Positions 46,604-54,823 of a stretch of DNA of 64,000 nucleotides are shown here, in pieces. Every line of letters starts with the position of its first letter. Position 1 is the stretch's first letter. A program made the translations under genes and the position numbers. The DNA is from Halorussus rarus (lineage in GTDB: Archaea > Halobacteriota > Halobacteria > Halobacteriales > Haladaptataceae). Below the pieces are notes generated by a model, which had not been told where the DNA came from, searched no databases, and saw nothing but the letters and a program-made list of their open reading frames with translations. The DNA is taken from assembly GCF_003369835.1 (NCBI RefSeq), contig NZ_QPMJ01000001.1, positions 868,001 to 932,000 on the forward strand. Reading direction: 5' to 3'.

Positions 46604-47551
46604 ATGGTACACGGACATCGCGAGCGGAGTATCTCCGACGAGCAGCGCCGGGAGTTCCTGAAGGCGCTCGGCGTCGGCGGCGCGGTCGCCGCCGGGGGTG
46701 CGACGCTCGACGACGTGCGGGAGGCGGTCGGAACCGGAGCGTCGGAAGAACTCGCGTCGGTGGGCGAGGCGATACGGAGCGACCTCGCAGGCGAACTCGA
46801 CGCAGAACTGCTGGCGAGCGGTCACGAGGACGTCGCCGCCGCGGCCTCGGGGCTGACGGCGGTCCCCGAGCGCGGCCTCCCCGGAATGGACGAGGGGCCC
46901 CGCGAGGAGTTCGCGGCGGTCGCGGAGGCGGCCCGGCCCGTCTACGACCACCTGGGCGAGGTCGGCTTCTTCGAGAGCACGACCGAGCGGCTGCCCGAGT
47001 TCACGCCGACGTTCATCGAGGACAGCGTCCGGCGGTTCGTCGTGAGCGACGGGCTGGCGGGGTCGCTGTCGGACCTCGGCTTCGACCAGCAGGAGCTGGT
47101 CGACCTGCTGGCGACGACCGTCAACCACCGCGAGCGCATCGGCGATCGTCACTGGGTCTCGACCGACGAACTCCCGCGCGAGGAGCTGGAGTTCGGCGAG
47201 TACGTCCCGCCGATGACGAAGGCCGCGGCCGGCGGCGTCCTGCTGTGGCTCGAGGACTTAGACGACCACGTCTGGACGAACGCGGTGCTGCTGACCGACG
47301 ACATCCTGGCCGACGCCGCGTGGGACGCCCGCGGGATGGCGGCCGGGTTCGACCTGATGGTCGACGGCGCCCGCCGCGTCGCCGACGGCGACTCGCACGG
47401 CGCCGACACCGGCGACGACGAGCTCGCCGGCCTGCTGTCGAGCGGCTTCGCGCTGCAGGCCATCTCGCAGAACCTGCTGCCCGAGGACGCCTACTGGATC
47501 GACGAGTCGGCCCGCGCGCAGCGAGACAACGACCTGGAGATTCCCAACTAA
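46604..47551 (+). CDS. Tat-signal protein encoded with the quinoprotein
   Basis: 315 residues. Begins with a twin-arginine motif R-R-E-F-L-K-A-L-G-V followed by a weakly hydrophobic stretch with Ala/Gly, so probably exported folded. The rest is helical and acidic with no metal or cofactor motif I recognise (S-T-T-E-R-L-P-E-F-T-P, L-L-A-T-T-V-N-H-R-E). It starts from its own TATA-like box, and the next gene begins one base after its stop, so the pair is one transcript. Possibly the small exported partner that carries the signal-less quinoprotein. Confidence 0.75.
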   Translation: MVHGHRERSISDEQRREFLKALGVGGAVAAGGATLDDVREAVGTGASEELASVGEAIRSDLAGELDAELLASGHEDVAAAASGLTAVPERGLPGMDEGPREEFAAVAEAARPVYDHLGEVGFFESTTERLPEFTPTFIEDSVRRFVVSDGLAGSLSDLGFDQQELVDLLATTVNHRERIGDRHWVSTDELPREELEFGEYVPPMTKAAAGGVLLWLEDLDDHVWTNAVLLTDDILADAAWDARGMAAGFDLMVDGARRVADGDSHGADTGDDELAGLLSSGFALQAISQNLLPEDAYWIDESARAQRDNDLEIPN

Positions 47552-47552
47552 C

Positions 47553-49658
47553 ATGCCCGCCGATATCGACCCCGAGAACGAGGAGATCGAACCGGAGGAG
47601 CGACCGCACTACATCGACACCGGCCCCGAGGCCCGCGGTGAGGACGAGCACGTCCGGTACAACATCCAGGAGGCCGCGGCCACCGAGTACCGGTTCGCCG
47701 GGCGGATCGCCGGCTGGGAGGCGCGCGCCCCGTCGCGACTCGAGGGCCAGGTGAACCCGACGCTCGAGCTGGAGGCCGGCCAGACGTACAGCGTGGTCTG
47801 GGAGAACGTCGACGGTGCGCCCCACGACTTCGTCATCCAGGACGCCGACGGGAACCGGATCGTGGGGACCGAGGTGTACGCCTCGCAGGGCGAGACGGTG
47901 ACGCTGTCGTTCCAGGCCACCGAGGAGATGTCCCGGTACATCTGCACCGTCCATCCCAACTCGATGGTCGGAGACGTCCAGATCGCGGGCGAAGGGCCGA
48001 GTCCCGGCGGCCAGCAGGAACCGATCCAGCAGCCGCCCGGCCCCGGAGCCGCGGAGGGCGACGTCCCCGAGCTCTCGGTGACGACTAACATGCTCCGCGA
48101 GGACCGCGACCGCCGCGACTCGTGGCTCAGCTACGACAAGGGGCTGGGTCAGCGGGGGTACACGCCCGCCGACCGGCTCGACGCCGACAACGTCGCGAGC
48201 CTCGAGCAGAAGTACACCATCCCGACCGACAGCGCGGGGATGGAGACGAACCCGGTGATCGTCCCCTCGGACCCGCCGGTGATGTACTACACGACGAGCA
48301 ACCTCTCCATCGTCGCGGCCAACGCCAGGAACGGCAAGAAGTACTGGCAGTTCAAGTACGCGCTGCCGGAGGACGCGGTGGGCCAGACCGGCCGCAACCG
48401 GGGCGTGGCGGTGTGGAAGGACAAGGTGTTCTTCGCCACGACCGATTCGTACCTGGTGGCGCTCGACCGCTACACCGGCGAGAAGGAGTGGGAGACCCTG
48501 ATGCTCACCGAGCGCCAGCAGCAGGAGATGGACCGGCCCGAGCGGATGTCCATCAGCCAGGCGCCCATCGCCTACGACGGCCGGATACTCGTCGGCATGT
48601 CCGGCGACTTCGGCGGCTGGTGCGTCGCCTCCTCGGTCGACGCCGAGTCGGGCGACGTCCAGTGGACGGTCAACATGGCACCGGAGGACGCCTGGGTCGG
48701 GGACAGCTGGCGGTTCGCGAGCAACGCCCCGTGGATGAACCCCTCGGTCGACCCCGAGACGAACACGGTGTTCTACTCGGTGGGCAACCCCTGTCCGATG
48801 ATGAACGGCATCGTCCGGCCGGGCCCGAACAAGTACTCGAACTCCATCGTCGCGGTCGACATCGACTCGGGCGAGATCAACTGGGCGAGCCAGCAGATAC
48901 CCCACGAACTGTGGGACTACGACAGCCACGCCACCCCGACCGTCTTCGACCTCGAGGTCGACGGCGAGACCCGCCGCGCGGTCTCGACCGACCAGAAGGC
49001 CGGCTGGACCTACGTCTACGACGCCGAGACCGGCCGGCTGCTCGAGCGCACCGCGCCGTGGACCAAGCAGGACCACGAGTGGGCCGACCACTTCCTGGCG
49101 CTCCCGCCGCGGGGCGAGGAGAACGCCGGGACCTGCTGGCCCGGCACCATCGGCGCGACCGAGTGGCCGCCGTGCGCCTACGATCCCGACACCGGCATGC
49201 GGTACGTCGCCGCGGTCGAGGCGGCCCAGCGGGTCTCCTACGACCCCGACTGGGAGTACGAGACCCAGGGCGACATCACCCTCGCCGAGGGCGGGTCGCG
49301 GCTCGCCTCGGAGGACACCACCCACAACGCGTACGTCCAGGCGGTCGACCCCGCGAGCGGCGACCTCGCGTGGCGGACCGAGCTCCCGGACGTCAACCCC
49401 GAGTGGTCACACTGGCGCATCTGGCCCGGCGGCACGACCGCCACCGGGGGCGGCGTCCTGTTCGTCCCCTCGTCGGGCGGCCACGTCTACGCGCTCGACA
49501 CCGAGACCGGCGAGCGCATCTGGAGCGCCGAGACCGACGCCGACCGCATCACCCCGGCGCCGGTGGTGTGGGACGACCCCACCGAGGGGACCCAGTACGT
49601 GGCGGTCGCGGCCGACGACGAGATAACCGTCTGGTCGTCCGGCGGCTTCGAAGAGTAA
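47553..49658 (+). CDS. Cupredoxin-fused PQQ-dependent dehydrogenase
   Basis: 701 residues. Residues ~65-148 form a blue copper domain with ligands H91, C131, H134 and M138 (A-P-H-D-F; C-T-V-H-P-N-S-M). After a Pro/Gln linker comes an eight-bladed quinoprotein propeller (about 185-700): H-E-L-W-D-Y-D-S-H-A-T-P, W-P-P-C-A-Y-D-P, and G-G-T-T-A-T-G-G-G-V-L-F as in PQQ alcohol or glucose dehydrogenases. The vicinal Cys pair of methanol dehydrogenase is absent. The N terminus is highly charged with no signal peptide, though such enzymes act outside the cytoplasm. The fused copper site may accept electrons straight from PQQ. Confidence 0.85.
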   Translation: MPADIDPENEEIEPEERPHYIDTGPEARGEDEHVRYNIQEAAATEYRFAGRIAGWEARAPSRLEGQVNPTLELEAGQTYSVVWENVDGAPHDFVIQDADGNRIVGTEVYASQGETVTLSFQATEEMSRYICTVHPNSMVGDVQIAGEGPSPGGQQEPIQQPPGPGAAEGDVPELSVTTNMLREDRDRRDSWLSYDKGLGQRGYTPADRLDADNVASLEQKYTIPTDSAGMETNPVIVPSDPPVMYYTTSNLSIVAANARNGKKYWQFKYALPEDAVGQTGRNRGVAVWKDKVFFATTDSYLVALDRYTGEKEWETLMLTERQQQEMDRPERMSISQAPIAYDGRILVGMSGDFGGWCVASSVDAESGDVQWTVNMAPEDAWVGDSWRFASNAPWMNPSVDPETNTVFYSVGNPCPMMNGIVRPGPNKYSNSIVAVDIDSGEINWASQQIPHELWDYDSHATPTVFDLEVDGETRRAVSTDQKAGWTYVYDAETGRLLERTAPWTKQDHEWADHFLALPPRGEENAGTCWPGTIGATEWPPCAYDPDTGMRYVAAVEAAQRVSYDPDWEYETQGDITLAEGGSRLASEDTTHNAYVQAVDPASGDLAWRTELPDVNPEWSHWRIWPGGTTATGGGVLFVPSSGGHVYALDTETGERIWSAETDADRITPAPVVWDDPTEGTQYVAVAADDEITVWSSGGFEE

Positions 49659-49792: not shown

Positions 49793-50539
49793 CTACGCCG
49801 ATTCCGCAACCGTCGCGGCGCCCGCTCTCGCCGCCTGGGTCGCCTCGGTCGTTGCGGTCCCGTTCGTCGCGGGCCCTTCGGCGAGCGAGACCCGGAACGA
49901 CCGGACCGTCTCCACGCTGGCGTTGCCGACCGTGATGGCCGGCGACGAGGCGTTCACCGGGGCGTCGCCCGCGACGTTCCCCGGGTTCGAGAGGTTCAGG
50001 CCCGCGGCCGACTGCACCGTCACGCTCTCGACGACGACGCCGTCGACCGTCCGGTTCCGGATGCCGACCCGCCGAACCGACCGGTTCGTCACGTTGAAGC
50101 CGCCGCCGAAGGGGACGCCGAAGGCCGAGAGCAGCTGGCGGCTCCGTATCGTCGCGTCCCTGATGCGCACGTCCGAGAGGTTCGCCCGCCGGACGTGGAC
50201 GCGCTCGAGCGAGACGTTGGCGAGCGTCACGTTCCGCTGCTGACCCATCTGGCGGACCGTCAGGTTCCGGACCACCACGTCGGTGGCGGTGACGTCGCGG
50301 AGCGCCACCGTCTCCGCCGAGAGGTTCCGCACGCCGACCCCCTGTCCGGACTGGGCCCGCGCATCGGCGGCGGAGATATCCGAACCGGGCGACTCGAAAT
50401 GTATATCGTCGTGCTCTGGGACCGGTGTCTGCGACCGGTCGTCCGGTCCGGCCGGGACTGTGGCTCCGGCCGCGAGCGGCGCGGCGACTGCGAGCGCGAT
50501 GGCGGCGACTACCAGCGTCGGGTATTCGCTGTCGAGCAT
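49793..50539 (-). CDS. Secreted sequon-rich repeat protein, paralogue of the next gene
   Basis: 248 residues with a signal peptide (hydrophobic about 9-27). The body is a series of short units of the type V-R-N-L-T-V and L-x-N-V-S-L-E, suggesting a beta-helix or stacked strands, with about ten N-x-S/T glycosylation sites. TATA-like GATTTAAGG on the minus strand lies 25-33 bp before the ATG at 50539. The segment around R-N-R-T-V-D-G-V-V-V-E-S matches that of the divergent neighbour, so the two are paralogues. No enzymatic motif; a surface or adhesion role is inferred. Confidence 0.75.
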   Translation of the reverse strand: MLDSEYPTLVVAAIALAVAAPLAAGATVPAGPDDRSQTPVPEHDDIHFESPGSDISAADARAQSGQGVGVRNLSAETVALRDVTATDVVVRNLTVRQMGQQRNVTLANVSLERVHVRRANLSDVRIRDATIRSRQLLSAFGVPFGGGFNVTNRSVRRVGIRNRTVDGVVVESVTVQSAAGLNLSNPGNVAGDAPVNASSPAITVGNASVETVRSFRVSLAEGPATNGTATTEATQAARAGAATVAESA

Positions 50540-50806: not shown

Positions 50807-51814
50807 ATGAACGACACACTGGCGATACTGATGGCACTGGTCCTCGCGCTCACCGGCGGGGTGGCCGGGTTCCTCGGCGGCGCCGGCCCCGCCCAGTCGG
50901 GAGCGGGAACCGGTGACGCCGCCCTTCAGGAGACGACGACGGCGCAGGCGGAGACGACGCAGGCACAGGCGACGACGATGCGAGCCGAGACGACCGCGTC
51001 CCAGCAGTCGCAGGCCGACAACGGGACCCAGCAGGCCCAGTCCTCCGACGCGGCGCAGGGCTCCGGGACCCACGTCGAGGCCCGGAACGTGACCGTCGAG
51101 CAGCTCACGCTGCGTAACGTCACGGTCACGAACGCCCAGTTCGACCAGCTGACGCTGGTGAACGCCTCGGGCGAGAACGCGACCGAGCGGACCTACAGCG
51201 ACGTCACGGTCCGGCAGATCGCGTCGACCGGGTTCGCGACCGACCTGACGGTCGAGAACGTCACCATCAGGAACGAGTCGCTCGCCGAGGCGCTCATCGA
51301 GGAGACCGGCCGAGTCCGCATCGAGACCCGGCTCGTCATGGACGAAGCCGTGCTCCAGAACCGGACCGTGAGCGGGCTCGCGGTCGAGAGCGCGACCGTC
51401 AACGTCGGCGCGACCGAGAACGTCTCGGTGTCGCGGGACGGCGGGGCGGCGGCCACCGGCGGCGACCAGTCGGCGGGCCAGCCCGCACTGGCCGCCGAGA
51501 CCGCGGTGGTCGAGAACTACTCGCTGACCCGGCTCGAGCTGTCGGGGGTCTCGCTCGGCCAGGCCGGTGGGAACGAGACCGCCGAGGCCGCCGAGACGAC
51601 CGCCGACGCGGCCGGAACCACCACCGCCGCCGGGCAGACGACTTCGGCGGAGGGGACTACCACGGCCCAGCAGACCACCGCGACCGACGAGGCCCAGACC
51701 ACGGCCGGCGGCCAGACGACCACGCCGACCGAGACGACGCCGGCGGAGGCCCGGAGCGGCGCGACCGACGACGAGACGACCACCTCGGCCGACGGGAACC
51801 AGACCGAGGGATGA
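50807..51814 (+). CDS. Secreted Thr-rich sequon protein, divergent paralogue
   Basis: 335 residues: signal peptide (about 5-25), Thr/Gln-rich linker, a repeat domain (about 95-255) with R-N-V-T-V units and many N-x-S/T sites, and a Thr-rich C-terminal tail likely to be O-glycosylated. N-R-T-V-S-G-L-A-V-E-S-A-T-V aligns with the partner encoded on the other side. TATA-like TTTATC lies 28-33 bp before the ATG. There is no C-terminal membrane anchor or sorting motif, so it is released or held by other means. Confidence 0.75.
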   Translation: MNDTLAILMALVLALTGGVAGFLGGAGPAQSGAGTGDAALQETTTAQAETTQAQATTMRAETTASQQSQADNGTQQAQSSDAAQGSGTHVEARNVTVEQLTLRNVTVTNAQFDQLTLVNASGENATERTYSDVTVRQIASTGFATDLTVENVTIRNESLAEALIEETGRVRIETRLVMDEAVLQNRTVSGLAVESATVNVGATENVSVSRDGGAAATGGDQSAGQPALAAETAVVENYSLTRLELSGVSLGQAGGNETAEAAETTADAAGTTTAAGQTTSAEGTTTAQQTTATDEAQTTAGGQTTTPTETTPAEARSGATDDETTTSADGNQTEG

Positions 51815-51949: not shown

Positions 51950-53167
51950 ATGGGGGAGACACGACGACAGTTCCTTCGAGCGACGGGTGTTTCGGCGGTC
52001 GGACTGGCGGGCGCGGTCGGCGGGGCGGCCGGCCAGTCGGACGGGGTCAGTCTGCTGCTCAACTGGAAGCCCAACGGGCTCCACATCCCCTACTACGCCG
52101 CGAGGGCGCGGGGGTACTACGAGGAGCAGGGCGTGAACCTGACCCGGATCAAGAGCGGGCAGGGGTCGGACTTCGCGGCCAAGCAGGTCGGCCTCGGCAA
52201 CGCGCCGCTCGCCGTCACCGGCGCCAGCCAGGTGCTCAACATCAACACCAGGGGGTTGAATCCGCAGTCGGTCGGGGTCGTGATGCAGCGGAGCCCGGTC
52301 GTGGTGTTCACGACGAGCGACGCCTTCGGCGGGCCGATGGACCGCGTCGACCAGCTCGCCGGGAAGACGGTCGGCACCGGCCCCGGCATGGTCCGGATAC
52401 TCACGAAGCTACTGCTTGAGCGGAAGGGCGTGCTCTCGGAGGTGGAGCTGGTCGACACCGGCTTCGACACGGTCCAGCAGCTGCTCAGCGGCAAGATCGA
52501 CGCCGCCGGCGGGGTGTTCGCCGACGCGGTGACCGCGCGCCGGCAGGCGGGCGAGGTCTACTCGATTCCGGTGGCCGAGACCATCCCCTCGTACGGGCAC
52601 GTCGTGGCCGCCAACTCACAGTTCGCGGCCGACAACCCAGAGACGGTACGGGGCTTCCTGAACGCGACCGCCCGGGGCGCGGCGTGGGCGACCGACAACC
52701 CCGAGCGGGCGACAGACCACCTGGTCGAGGCCAACCCGGCCATCTCCGAGACCGCGGACGTCCAGCGCGCCAAGTGGGTCGAGATGGCCGGCGACTACGT
52801 GCTGTCGGACGCGGTGCGCCGGCGCGGCTGGGGGTGGAGCGACGCCCAGCCGTGGCAGACGATGTACGAAGCGCTCCGGGACGCGGAGCTCCTCGGCGGC
52901 GAGACCGACCCGACGTCGGTCTGGACCAACGACTACCTCGACACGGAGTACGAGTACGTCGGGCAGTACGCGTCGCAGGTCACGCCGCCGGAGTCGACCG
53001 CCACCGGGACGATGGCAGGCGGCGCCGGCGCGACCGGGACCACCGCGGCGGGCGCGTCCGGGACGACGACCGGCACCGCGACGGGCAGCGACGCCGGAAC
53101 GACCGCGGCCGGCGGCACTTCGGAGCCGACGACCGTCGAGACGACGGCGGCGAACGGTTCGAACTGA
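51950..53167 (+). CDS. ABC importer substrate-binding protein (NMT1/SsuA type)
   Basis: 405 residues with a Tat signal (R-R-Q-F-L-R-A-T-G) but no lipobox Cys. The binding domain (about 30-340) begins L-L-L-N-W-K-P-N-G-L-H-I-P-Y-Y-A-A, as in the NMT1/THI5-like group that binds pyrimidine, sulfonate or other small organic compounds. A Thr/Gly-rich tail (about 345-405) is typical of haloarchaeal exported proteins. The TATA-like ATTATACG at 51913-51920 lies about 30 bp before the ATG. Permease overlaps its stop. Confidence 0.88.
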   Translation: MGETRRQFLRATGVSAVGLAGAVGGAAGQSDGVSLLLNWKPNGLHIPYYAARARGYYEEQGVNLTRIKSGQGSDFAAKQVGLGNAPLAVTGASQVLNINTRGLNPQSVGVVMQRSPVVVFTTSDAFGGPMDRVDQLAGKTVGTGPGMVRILTKLLLERKGVLSEVELVDTGFDTVQQLLSGKIDAAGGVFADAVTARRQAGEVYSIPVAETIPSYGHVVAANSQFAADNPETVRGFLNATARGAAWATDNPERATDHLVEANPAISETADVQRAKWVEMAGDYVLSDAVRRRGWGWSDAQPWQTMYEALRDAELLGGETDPTSVWTNDYLDTEYEYVGQYASQVTPPESTATGTMAGGAGATGTTAAGASGTTTGTATGSDAGTTAAGGTSEPTTVETTAANGSN

Positions 53168-54027
53168 TGGACGGCTCGGGGTCGCGGGCGTCCGGGTCGC
53201 GCTCGTCGGCGTCGGGGACGCCCGCGTCGGACGCGACGTCGCGCCGGCAAGACATGCGGACCCGGACGTCGGCCGCGACCCGGGCCTCGGGGCTCGCGGC
53301 GCGCGCCGCCCCGGCAGTCGTCACCGCAGTGCTCGCAGTGGTCGCGTGGTGGGCCGCCGCCCGGACCGCCGACGTGCCGGCCGTCGTCCTTCCGAGTCCA
53401 GTCGACGTGGGCGCGGCGTTCGCAGCCCACTGGCGAATCCTGCTCGAAGCCGCCGGCGTCACCGCGCTCACCGCGGGTCTCGGCGTCGTCGCGGGAGCGC
53501 TCGCGGGCGGGGCGCTCGCGGTGGCGATGGCCGCCTCCGAGACGACCCGTGCGGTGGTCAGGCCCTACGTGGTCGCGCTCCGGGTGGTCCCGCTGGTCGC
53601 GGTCGCGCCGCTGCTGTTCCGGTGGTTCGGCGACGGAGTGGGGGCCCGCGCCGCGCTGGCGGCCACGCTGGCAGTGTTCCCGGTGACGATCGCGACCTAC
53701 CAGGGGCTTGCCGCGACGCCCGACGAGTTCGTGGCGCTCGCTCGGTCGGTCGGCGCTTCGCCGGCGACGCAGTACCTCCGGGTGCGGCTCCCGGCGGCGG
53801 CCCCGCAGGCGTTCGCGGGCCTGAAGGTCGCTGCCGCCGCGAGCGTGGTCGGCGCGGTGGTCGCGGAGTTCCTGACCCTGACCGCGGGCGTCGGCTACCG
53901 GGTGTTCCGGGCGTCGACCCGGCTCCAGACCGCCCGGATGCTCGCCGCGCTGGGAGTGCTGGCGCTGCTGGGCGTCGGCTTCTACCTGGTGCCAGCGCTT
54001 GTCGAACGCCGATTCGACTGGGGGTAG
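53167..54027 (+). CDS. ABC importer permease A (SsuC/TauC type)
   Basis: 286 residues; ATG overlaps the stop of the binding protein. An unusual Ser/Arg-rich N terminus of ~45 residues is followed by five to six membrane helices and the coupling-loop motif G-A-S-P-A-T-Q-Y-L-R-V-R-L-P-A-A, the E-A-A-like loop that docks on the ATPase. Highly similar in plan to permease B, encoded on the other strand 29 bp away. Confidence 0.87.
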   Translation: MDGSGSRASGSRSSASGTPASDATSRRQDMRTRTSAATRASGLAARAAPAVVTAVLAVVAWWAAARTADVPAVVLPSPVDVGAAFAAHWRILLEAAGVTALTAGLGVVAGALAGGALAVAMAASETTRAVVRPYVVALRVVPLVAVAPLLFRWFGDGVGARAALAATLAVFPVTIATYQGLAATPDEFVALARSVGASPATQYLRVRLPAAAPQAFAGLKVAAAASVVGAVVAEFLTLTAGVGYRVFRASTRLQTARMLAALGVLALLGVGFYLVPALVERRFDWG

Positions 54028-54055
54028 CGGACGGGGCTGCAGGAACGCGAGCGGT

Positions 54056-54823
54056 TCACCGCCAGTCGATCCGGTTCTCGACCGCGACGACGGCGCCGTA
54101 CACCGCCATGCCCTCGGCGAAGAGGACGACGACCGCCGCCAGCACCACGTCGGTCTGGACGTTCTCGGCCCCGATGAGGACGAGGTAGCCCAGCCCCTCG
54201 TCGGTCAGGATCCACTCGGCCACCACCGCGCCGACCGTCGCGAGCGCGGCCGACTGCTTGAGGCCGGCGAACACCGAGGGCAGCGCGGCCGGCACCCGGA
54301 CGAACAGGAACGTCCGGACCGGGCCGGCGTCGACCGACCGGAGCAGGTCGAGGTACTCCTCGGGGGTCCCGTCGAGCCCCGACGCCGAGCTCACGTACGT
54401 CGGGAAGAAGGCGACGAGCGCGACGAACCAGAGCGCGGTGCCCGCGCCGGTCCCCAGATACACCAACAGTAGCGGCGCGACCGCGATCTTCGGCAGCACG
54501 CGCGCGGTGACCAGATAGGGGTAGAGCGCTCGCCGGAGCAGCGTCGAGTGGACCGTCACCGCGGCCGCGCCGAACCCCGCGAGCACGCCGGCCGCGCCGC
54601 CCCCGAGCACGGTCCGGAGGGTGACGAGCCCGTTGTGCGCGTAGAGCCCCGGCCGGGAGGCGAGCCGGTCGGCGACCGCGACCGGCGATGGGAGCAGGTA
54701 CGGCGGGACGCCGAGCAGCGCGACCACCGCCCACCAGACCAGAACGCCGACGGCGAGGCCGCCCGCCGGCAGCGAGACCCGCGCGGCCGGAATCCGGTCG
54801 GCGTAGCTCACCGGCGCCCGCAC
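54056..54823 (-). CDS. ABC importer permease B (SsuC/ThiX type)
   Basis: 255 residues, GTG start, 31 bp after the ATPase gene on the minus strand. Six hydrophobic segments and an EAA-type loop (R-S-V-D-A-G-P-V-R-T-F-L-F-V-R-V-P-A-A-L-P-S). Its helices and loop resemble permease A, so the complex may hold a heterodimer of permeases, or each permease may serve another binding protein. Confidence 0.87.
   Translation of the reverse strand: MRAPVSYADRIPAARVSLPAGGLAVGVLVWWAVVALLGVPPYLLPSPVAVADRLASRPGLYAHNGLVTLRTVLGGGAAGVLAGFGAAAVTVHSTLLRRALYPYLVTARVLPKIAVAPLLLVYLGTGAGTALWFVALVAFFPTYVSSASGLDGTPEEYLDLLRSVDAGPVRTFLFVRVPAALPSVFAGLKQSAALATVGAVVAEWILTDEGLGYLVLIGAENVQTDVVLAAVVVLFAEGMAVYGAVVAVENRIDWR

Follow-up and report, generated by a model that had tools for sequence, protein, structure and literature searches.

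A signal-less, cupredoxin-fused quinoprotein of Halorussus rarus and its constant gene neighbor, a predicted helical partner and candidate Tat carrier

Hydrogenase-2 has one subunit that bears the Tat signal for signal-less partners. Among quinoproteins, PedH and XoxF are exported with a signal of their own and use cytochrome c. PaoABC of E. coli is a Tat hitch-hiking complex (PMC4273604), and the FAD glucose dehydrogenase of Burkholderia cepacia forms a gamma-alpha complex with a hitchhiker gamma subunit (PMC6719666). Haloarchaea secrete proteins mainly by way of Tat (PMC2910488). We analyzed a 64,000-nucleotide stretch of the H. rarus genome (the window), and within it two adjacent genes, A and B. 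In the public records A is annotated as a hypothetical protein and B as a dehydrogenase or PQQ-binding-like propeller protein. We found no description of the A-B pair in the open-access literature, most subscription journals being outside the scope of the search. The features of the pair are as follows.

46604-47551, + strand: gene A, predicted all-helical partner protein of 315 aa, no Pfam family beyond a weak TAT_signal match
46628-46702, + strand: Tat-type signal segment of A, residues 9-33, SISDEQRREFLKALGVGGAVAAGGA, with RR at 46646-46651
47553-49658, + strand: gene B, quinoprotein dehydrogenase with an N-terminal cupredoxin, 701 aa, no signal peptide
47553-47678, + strand: B residues 1-42, acidic tail predicted to be disordered, no signal
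47679-47990, + strand: B residues 43-146, cupredoxin domain with putative copper ligands H91, C131, H134 and M138
48075-49643, + strand: B residues 175-697, PQQ-dehydrogenase beta-propeller
48915-48923, + strand: B D455-Y456-D457, putative catalytic Asp and the extra Asp of lanthanide-dependent PQQ dehydrogenases

The preliminary description of this DNA had read B as a blue copper domain joined to a PQQ propeller on one chain, and as a quinoprotein without a signal lying one base behind a Tat-signal protein. Both readings held up. The PQQ family PF01011 matched B with an E-value of 5.6e-60, and all four type-1 copper ligands were assigned by motif. The AlphaFold model of B had a disordered tail (residues 1-42), a beta-sandwich of low to moderate confidence (43-146) and a propeller (175-697). 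When the model was compared with solved structures by Foldseek, the best matches were PQQ alcohol dehydrogenases, lanthanide-dependent PedH being first (E 7e-40), and TIGR03075 (PQQ alcohol dehydrogenase) matched B under its cut-off. Pfam Cupredoxin_1 scored far under its cut-off on B, and the domain shared 58% and 52% identity with two further cupredoxins encoded in this genome. As identified by its ligands and these identities, the N-terminal domain of B is a cupredoxin. The cupredoxin with 58% identity belongs to a Tat-signal protein (L042, C1:988601-991918 of the same genome), in which it is followed by a long unassigned domain.

The stop codon of A and the start of B (47553) are separated by one base. 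A signal on an upstream start of B had been named beforehand as evidence against the preliminary reading; such a peptide was ruled out, since no ATG, GTG or TTG lies in frame upstream of 47553. Residues 1-60 held no hydrophobic stretch either, the best 16-residue Kyte-Doolittle mean being -0.07. An N-terminal signal was found in 0 of 107 B, and the five bacterial relatives covered had hydrophobic, signal-like starts.

The sequence SISDEQRREFLKALGVGGAVAAGG sits near the start of A, where RREFLK and a hydrophobic segment make up a twin-arginine signal; RREFLKALGVGGAVAAGG corresponds to residues 15-32 of the gene A product. NCBIfam TAT_signal_seq (TIGR01409) scored 17.5 bits on A relative to a cut-off of 16.7, while Pfam TAT_signal was under its own cut-off, and no cleavage site was evident behind the segment. 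The predicted structure of A was all helical (mean pLDDT 89.9, pTM 0.90). Since the Tat segment was confidently modelled as a helix (residues 12-21, pLDDT block mean 92), as was the homologous segment of A proteins lacking the motif, it could in principle be structural. A fold search of the PDB gave no match to A at E <= 0.001, and viral fold relatives were not significant. No Pfam family was common to 64 members of A, Tat-signal matches apart. We also considered A as a small subunit of the gluconate, sorbitol or glucose dehydrogenases and rejected this for lack of a convincing match by sequence or fold; FAD-SLDH gave a single stray match (E 0.084) in one of the 64 members. One pattern-based scan for A, of limited sensitivity, returned 38 loci, all of them in Halobacteria.

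We then determined how constant the pairing is among 392 Halobacteria genomes, using a threshold of E <= 1e-40 for B. The genome of the window has three full B homologues with A before each. In the sample, A lay upstream on the same strand in 103 of 103 B places, a count that covers the best three candidates per genome and beside which remoter propellers without A may exist. Conversely, B followed directly downstream on the same strand in all 107 full-length A, four B under the threshold included, so that the preliminary suggestion of a pair always adjacent in other genomes was borne out and none of these A homologues stood apart from a quinoprotein neighbor. A matched 73 of the 392 genomes, a few by weak partial matches alone (E 2e-4 to 7e-4). 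In one locus (L101, genome G163) the B behind an intact A is only 206 aa long and is apparently a broken copy. The distance matrices of A and B correlated with r 0.90, and swapping paralogues within genomes lowered the correlation to 0.771 or less in 999 trials, indicating that each A tracks its own B and not only the species. One Halorussus pair (C1:13582-16118 in the genome of the window, L086; also L077 and L106) lies between a nusA-like gene and the genes for ribosomal proteins S12 and S7, thus within a row of RNA polymerase, ribosomal protein and EF2 genes.

The Tat motif was far less constant than the pair. RRxFL with a hydrophobic Gly/Ala segment was present in 46 of the 107 full-length A, which are all 46 members of what we term the RR set. 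It was missing from the other 61, in which the homologous start is mostly hydrophilic and B is still kept; the mean hydrophobicity of the segment was 1.57 with RR versus 0.21 without. A proteins with RR have almost no Cys and those without the motif about one, and B is poorer in Cys in the RR set overall, the five Cys of the window B notwithstanding. In a tree rooted with bacterial enzymes, the motif-less pairs were nested, forming clade 5 with 5 rows and clade 7 with 55 in the large tree, and the label required two changes. As the motif is found to either side of the root, the simplest history would be two losses. Because the pair is kept in 61 of 107 cases without the motif, carrying a signal cannot be the basic job of A, some function independent of its export signal exists in the family, and the idea that A is merely a signal carrier was rejected. 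As read from the sequences, A is an obligate partner first and an export carrier secondarily.

The account that we consider probable is that A binds B and stabilizes it before export, within the cytoplasm, and that the signal of A directs the complex to Tat in the RR lineages. The physical complex, its export, and its cofactor, substrate and electron route are what we infer for the pair. The constant adjacency and the pair-specific co-evolution bear indirectly on binding of A to B. A and B would form one complex, B folding in the cytoplasm together with A, whose general job would be that of an obligate folding or stability partner. In the RR lineages, including the window, the Tat machinery would recognize A and export the complex of A and B in folded form. 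Once outside the membrane, B would use PQQ acquired from its surroundings to oxidize an alcohol, aldehyde or sugar. Electrons would pass from B to the fused cupredoxin (a separate cupredoxin in related clades) and from there into the respiratory chain. Twice, A would have lost its Tat segment and itself been retained. TatC is present. Seven B of genomes G191 and G241 (one genus), all with an RR partner, end in PGF-CTERM-like tails made up of a Thr/Glu/Asp-rich linker, GPGF or GPGL, an Ala/Gly-rich hydrophobic stretch and a KKR-like basic end. These tails fell under the curated cut-offs, with TIGR04126 at 22.1 and 18.6 bits in two (cut-off 24.5) and PF18204 at 16.2 in a third (cut-off 18.8). 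An archaeosortase is encoded in both genomes, and no such tail was found in B of the 61 motif-less pairs. The hitch-hiking proposed in the preliminary description thus gained from the motif-bearing pairs, by their tails and the cupredoxin fusion, and lost as a family-wide statement: it is right in direction for the window pair and does not describe the whole family, the signal being present in fewer than half of the sampled pairs.

The catalytic site was compared in methanol dehydrogenase numbering, transferred by alignment. All 105 B retained Trp243, Asp303, the extra Asp and Lys331, and 104 of them Asn261. In the window B, Lys replaces Arg331, and the metal ligand Glu177 is Asp; in groups 1-2 this position is Asp, Tyr, Asn or Glu. 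The vicinal Cys pair above PQQ is missing in the window B and in groups 1, 2, 4 and 5 and present in groups 3, 6 and 7. The PQQ pocket predicted for the window B is atypical. All 105 B have the D-x-D signature, which aligned like that of XoxF (wdyd) and PedH (wdfd) as opposed to the calcium methanol dehydrogenase (wdfa). D-x-D is found in lanthanide enzymes and D-x-A/S/T in calcium enzymes (PMC11996626). B is probably a PQQ dehydrogenase of the lanthanide type. As to whether the genome encodes PQQ synthesis, a check proposed in the preliminary description, pqqC was not found: it was over the cut-off in 0 of 392 Halobacteria, while the same search was positive on a Rahnella plasmid. The pqqE and pqqB models gave matches in the genome of the window under the cut-off only, as in unrelated control genomes. 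Because pqqC was not found in Halobacteria, PQQ for B would have to come from the surroundings or by another route.

The lack of pqqC also fits a different reading, compatible with hitch-hiking, in which the propeller of B is empty or of a non-PQQ kind and serves in structure or sensing. The variable Glu177 and the lost vicinal Cys pair of groups 1-2 point the same way, as does a match to the acido-empty-quinoprotein group A family (TIGR04528, E 2.3e-73), though its 247.6 bits are far under the cut-off of 650. However, TIGR03075 outscored this family on B, most ligands are kept, with Trp243, Asp303, the extra Asp and Lys331 conserved throughout the 105 B and Asn261 in all but one, and many bacteria use PQQ that they do not make themselves. 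We regard an empty propeller as unlikely.

Somewhat less likely still is that A is a dedicated foldase or structural subunit, that its RR helix fits the Tat consensus by chance and that the pair is cytoplasmic family-wide. Such a reading would account for the 61 motif-less A and for the Tat segment being predicted as a helix. It would also account for clades 7b and 7c, where no cupredoxin was detected, 27 of 33 loci have ferredoxin genes nearby and 28 of 33 a gene for a CDC48-type ATPase, and B is richer in Cys (median 8 and 5). These neighbors fit an intracellular version of the pair, but shared synteny alone may explain them. Against a cytoplasmic pair in the RR set stand the RRxFL motif and hydrophobic segment in every one of its 46 A and the PGF-CTERM-like tails on seven B. 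Blue copper domains would be unusual in the cytoplasm, and the nearest relatives of the fused cupredoxin in the genome (L042 and L043) carry their own Tat signals. A double cupredoxin beside another pair (L064) also has one.

Export of B by a third, Tat-signal protein (a cupredoxin), with the signal of A redundant or a relic, would suit clades 7a and 5, in which A is motif-less and the next same-strand gene after the pair has a Tat signal (23/23 and 5/5) and encodes a cupredoxin in 26 of 28, but it is very unlikely, since no separate cupredoxin gene adjoins the window pair, whose cupredoxin lies in B, and most loci of groups 2 and 3 are without a Tat-signal cupredoxin neighbor.

Export by way of A remains our preferred reading for the window pair, and the surrounding genes bear on its electron acceptor. 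A cupredoxin-GSDH gene is nearby in 17 of 17 group 4 loci, and a c5-family cupredoxin in 9 of 9 loci of group 6 and 23 of 23 of clade 7a, in the latter directly downstream on the same strand. Since a cupredoxin is either fused to B or mostly encoded next door in groups 4, 5, 6 and 7a, the acceptor, which the preliminary description had called unknown, is probably not so. Its proposal of a two-gene redox unit was not sustained: A has no cofactor motif and no conserved Cys, and the pair therefore looks like a dehydrogenase with an assembly or export partner. Other genes also recur at these loci. Adjoining the window pair (51950-54734) are a gene for an NMT1/SsuA-type substrate-binding protein with a Tat signal and transporter genes, a candidate importer of cofactor or product; binding proteins of this family are encoded at 44 of the 107 pair loci. 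Two related proteins without a Pfam family (49793-50539, - strand, and 50807-51814, + strand) were seen only in the five window-type loci. Sodium/calcium exchanger genes lie near 26 of 107 pairs, often two close together (L097:10266-11366, L104 and others).

A broader picture can be drawn, of a haloarchaeal branch of lanthanide-type quinoproteins that invariably depends on a helical partner with a new fold, with Tat hitch-hiking ancestral and lost twice and one branch now a cytoplasmic PQQ-type enzyme working with ferredoxin, all without pqqC, the known gene of PQQ synthesis; taken as a whole we find it doubtful. With export through A, an archaeal copper-linked quinoprotein family, with a partner that matches no solved fold, would join the few Tat hitch-hikers described. 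Two natural losses of the signal that leave the pair intact would allow the need for a partner in folding to be told apart from the need for one in export, a distinction that is difficult to draw in known systems. The pair also raises the question of how PQQ is supplied to a lanthanide-type enzyme in organisms without pqqC.

Compared with the described systems, A resembles the gamma subunit of the B. cepacia enzyme in being small, helical and furnished with a twin-arginine signal; there, the catalytic subunit depends on it to fold and to be secreted. The two complexes differ in that the B. cepacia catalyst is a GMC flavoprotein and its acceptor a haem c subunit. A also differs from the known small subunits in that no sequence or fold match to them was found and that it persists without the motif in most homologues. 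Like PaoABC and hydrogenase-2, the A-B pair has the Tat signal on one member and a partner without a signal, but in those complexes the signal is on a redox subunit. PedH (PDB 6zcv and 6zcw) is the solved structure nearest to B by both sequence and fold, and D-x-D is shared with PedH and XoxF. Unlike these two, B has no signal, Lys in place of Arg331, an altered Glu177 in groups 1-2, and a cupredoxin instead of a cytochrome. Whereas the domain fused in B has no Tat signal, the Tat-exported haloarchaeal cupredoxins (L042, L043 and the gene after the L064 pair) each bear their own, and they share with B the same domain and its H, C, H and M ligands.
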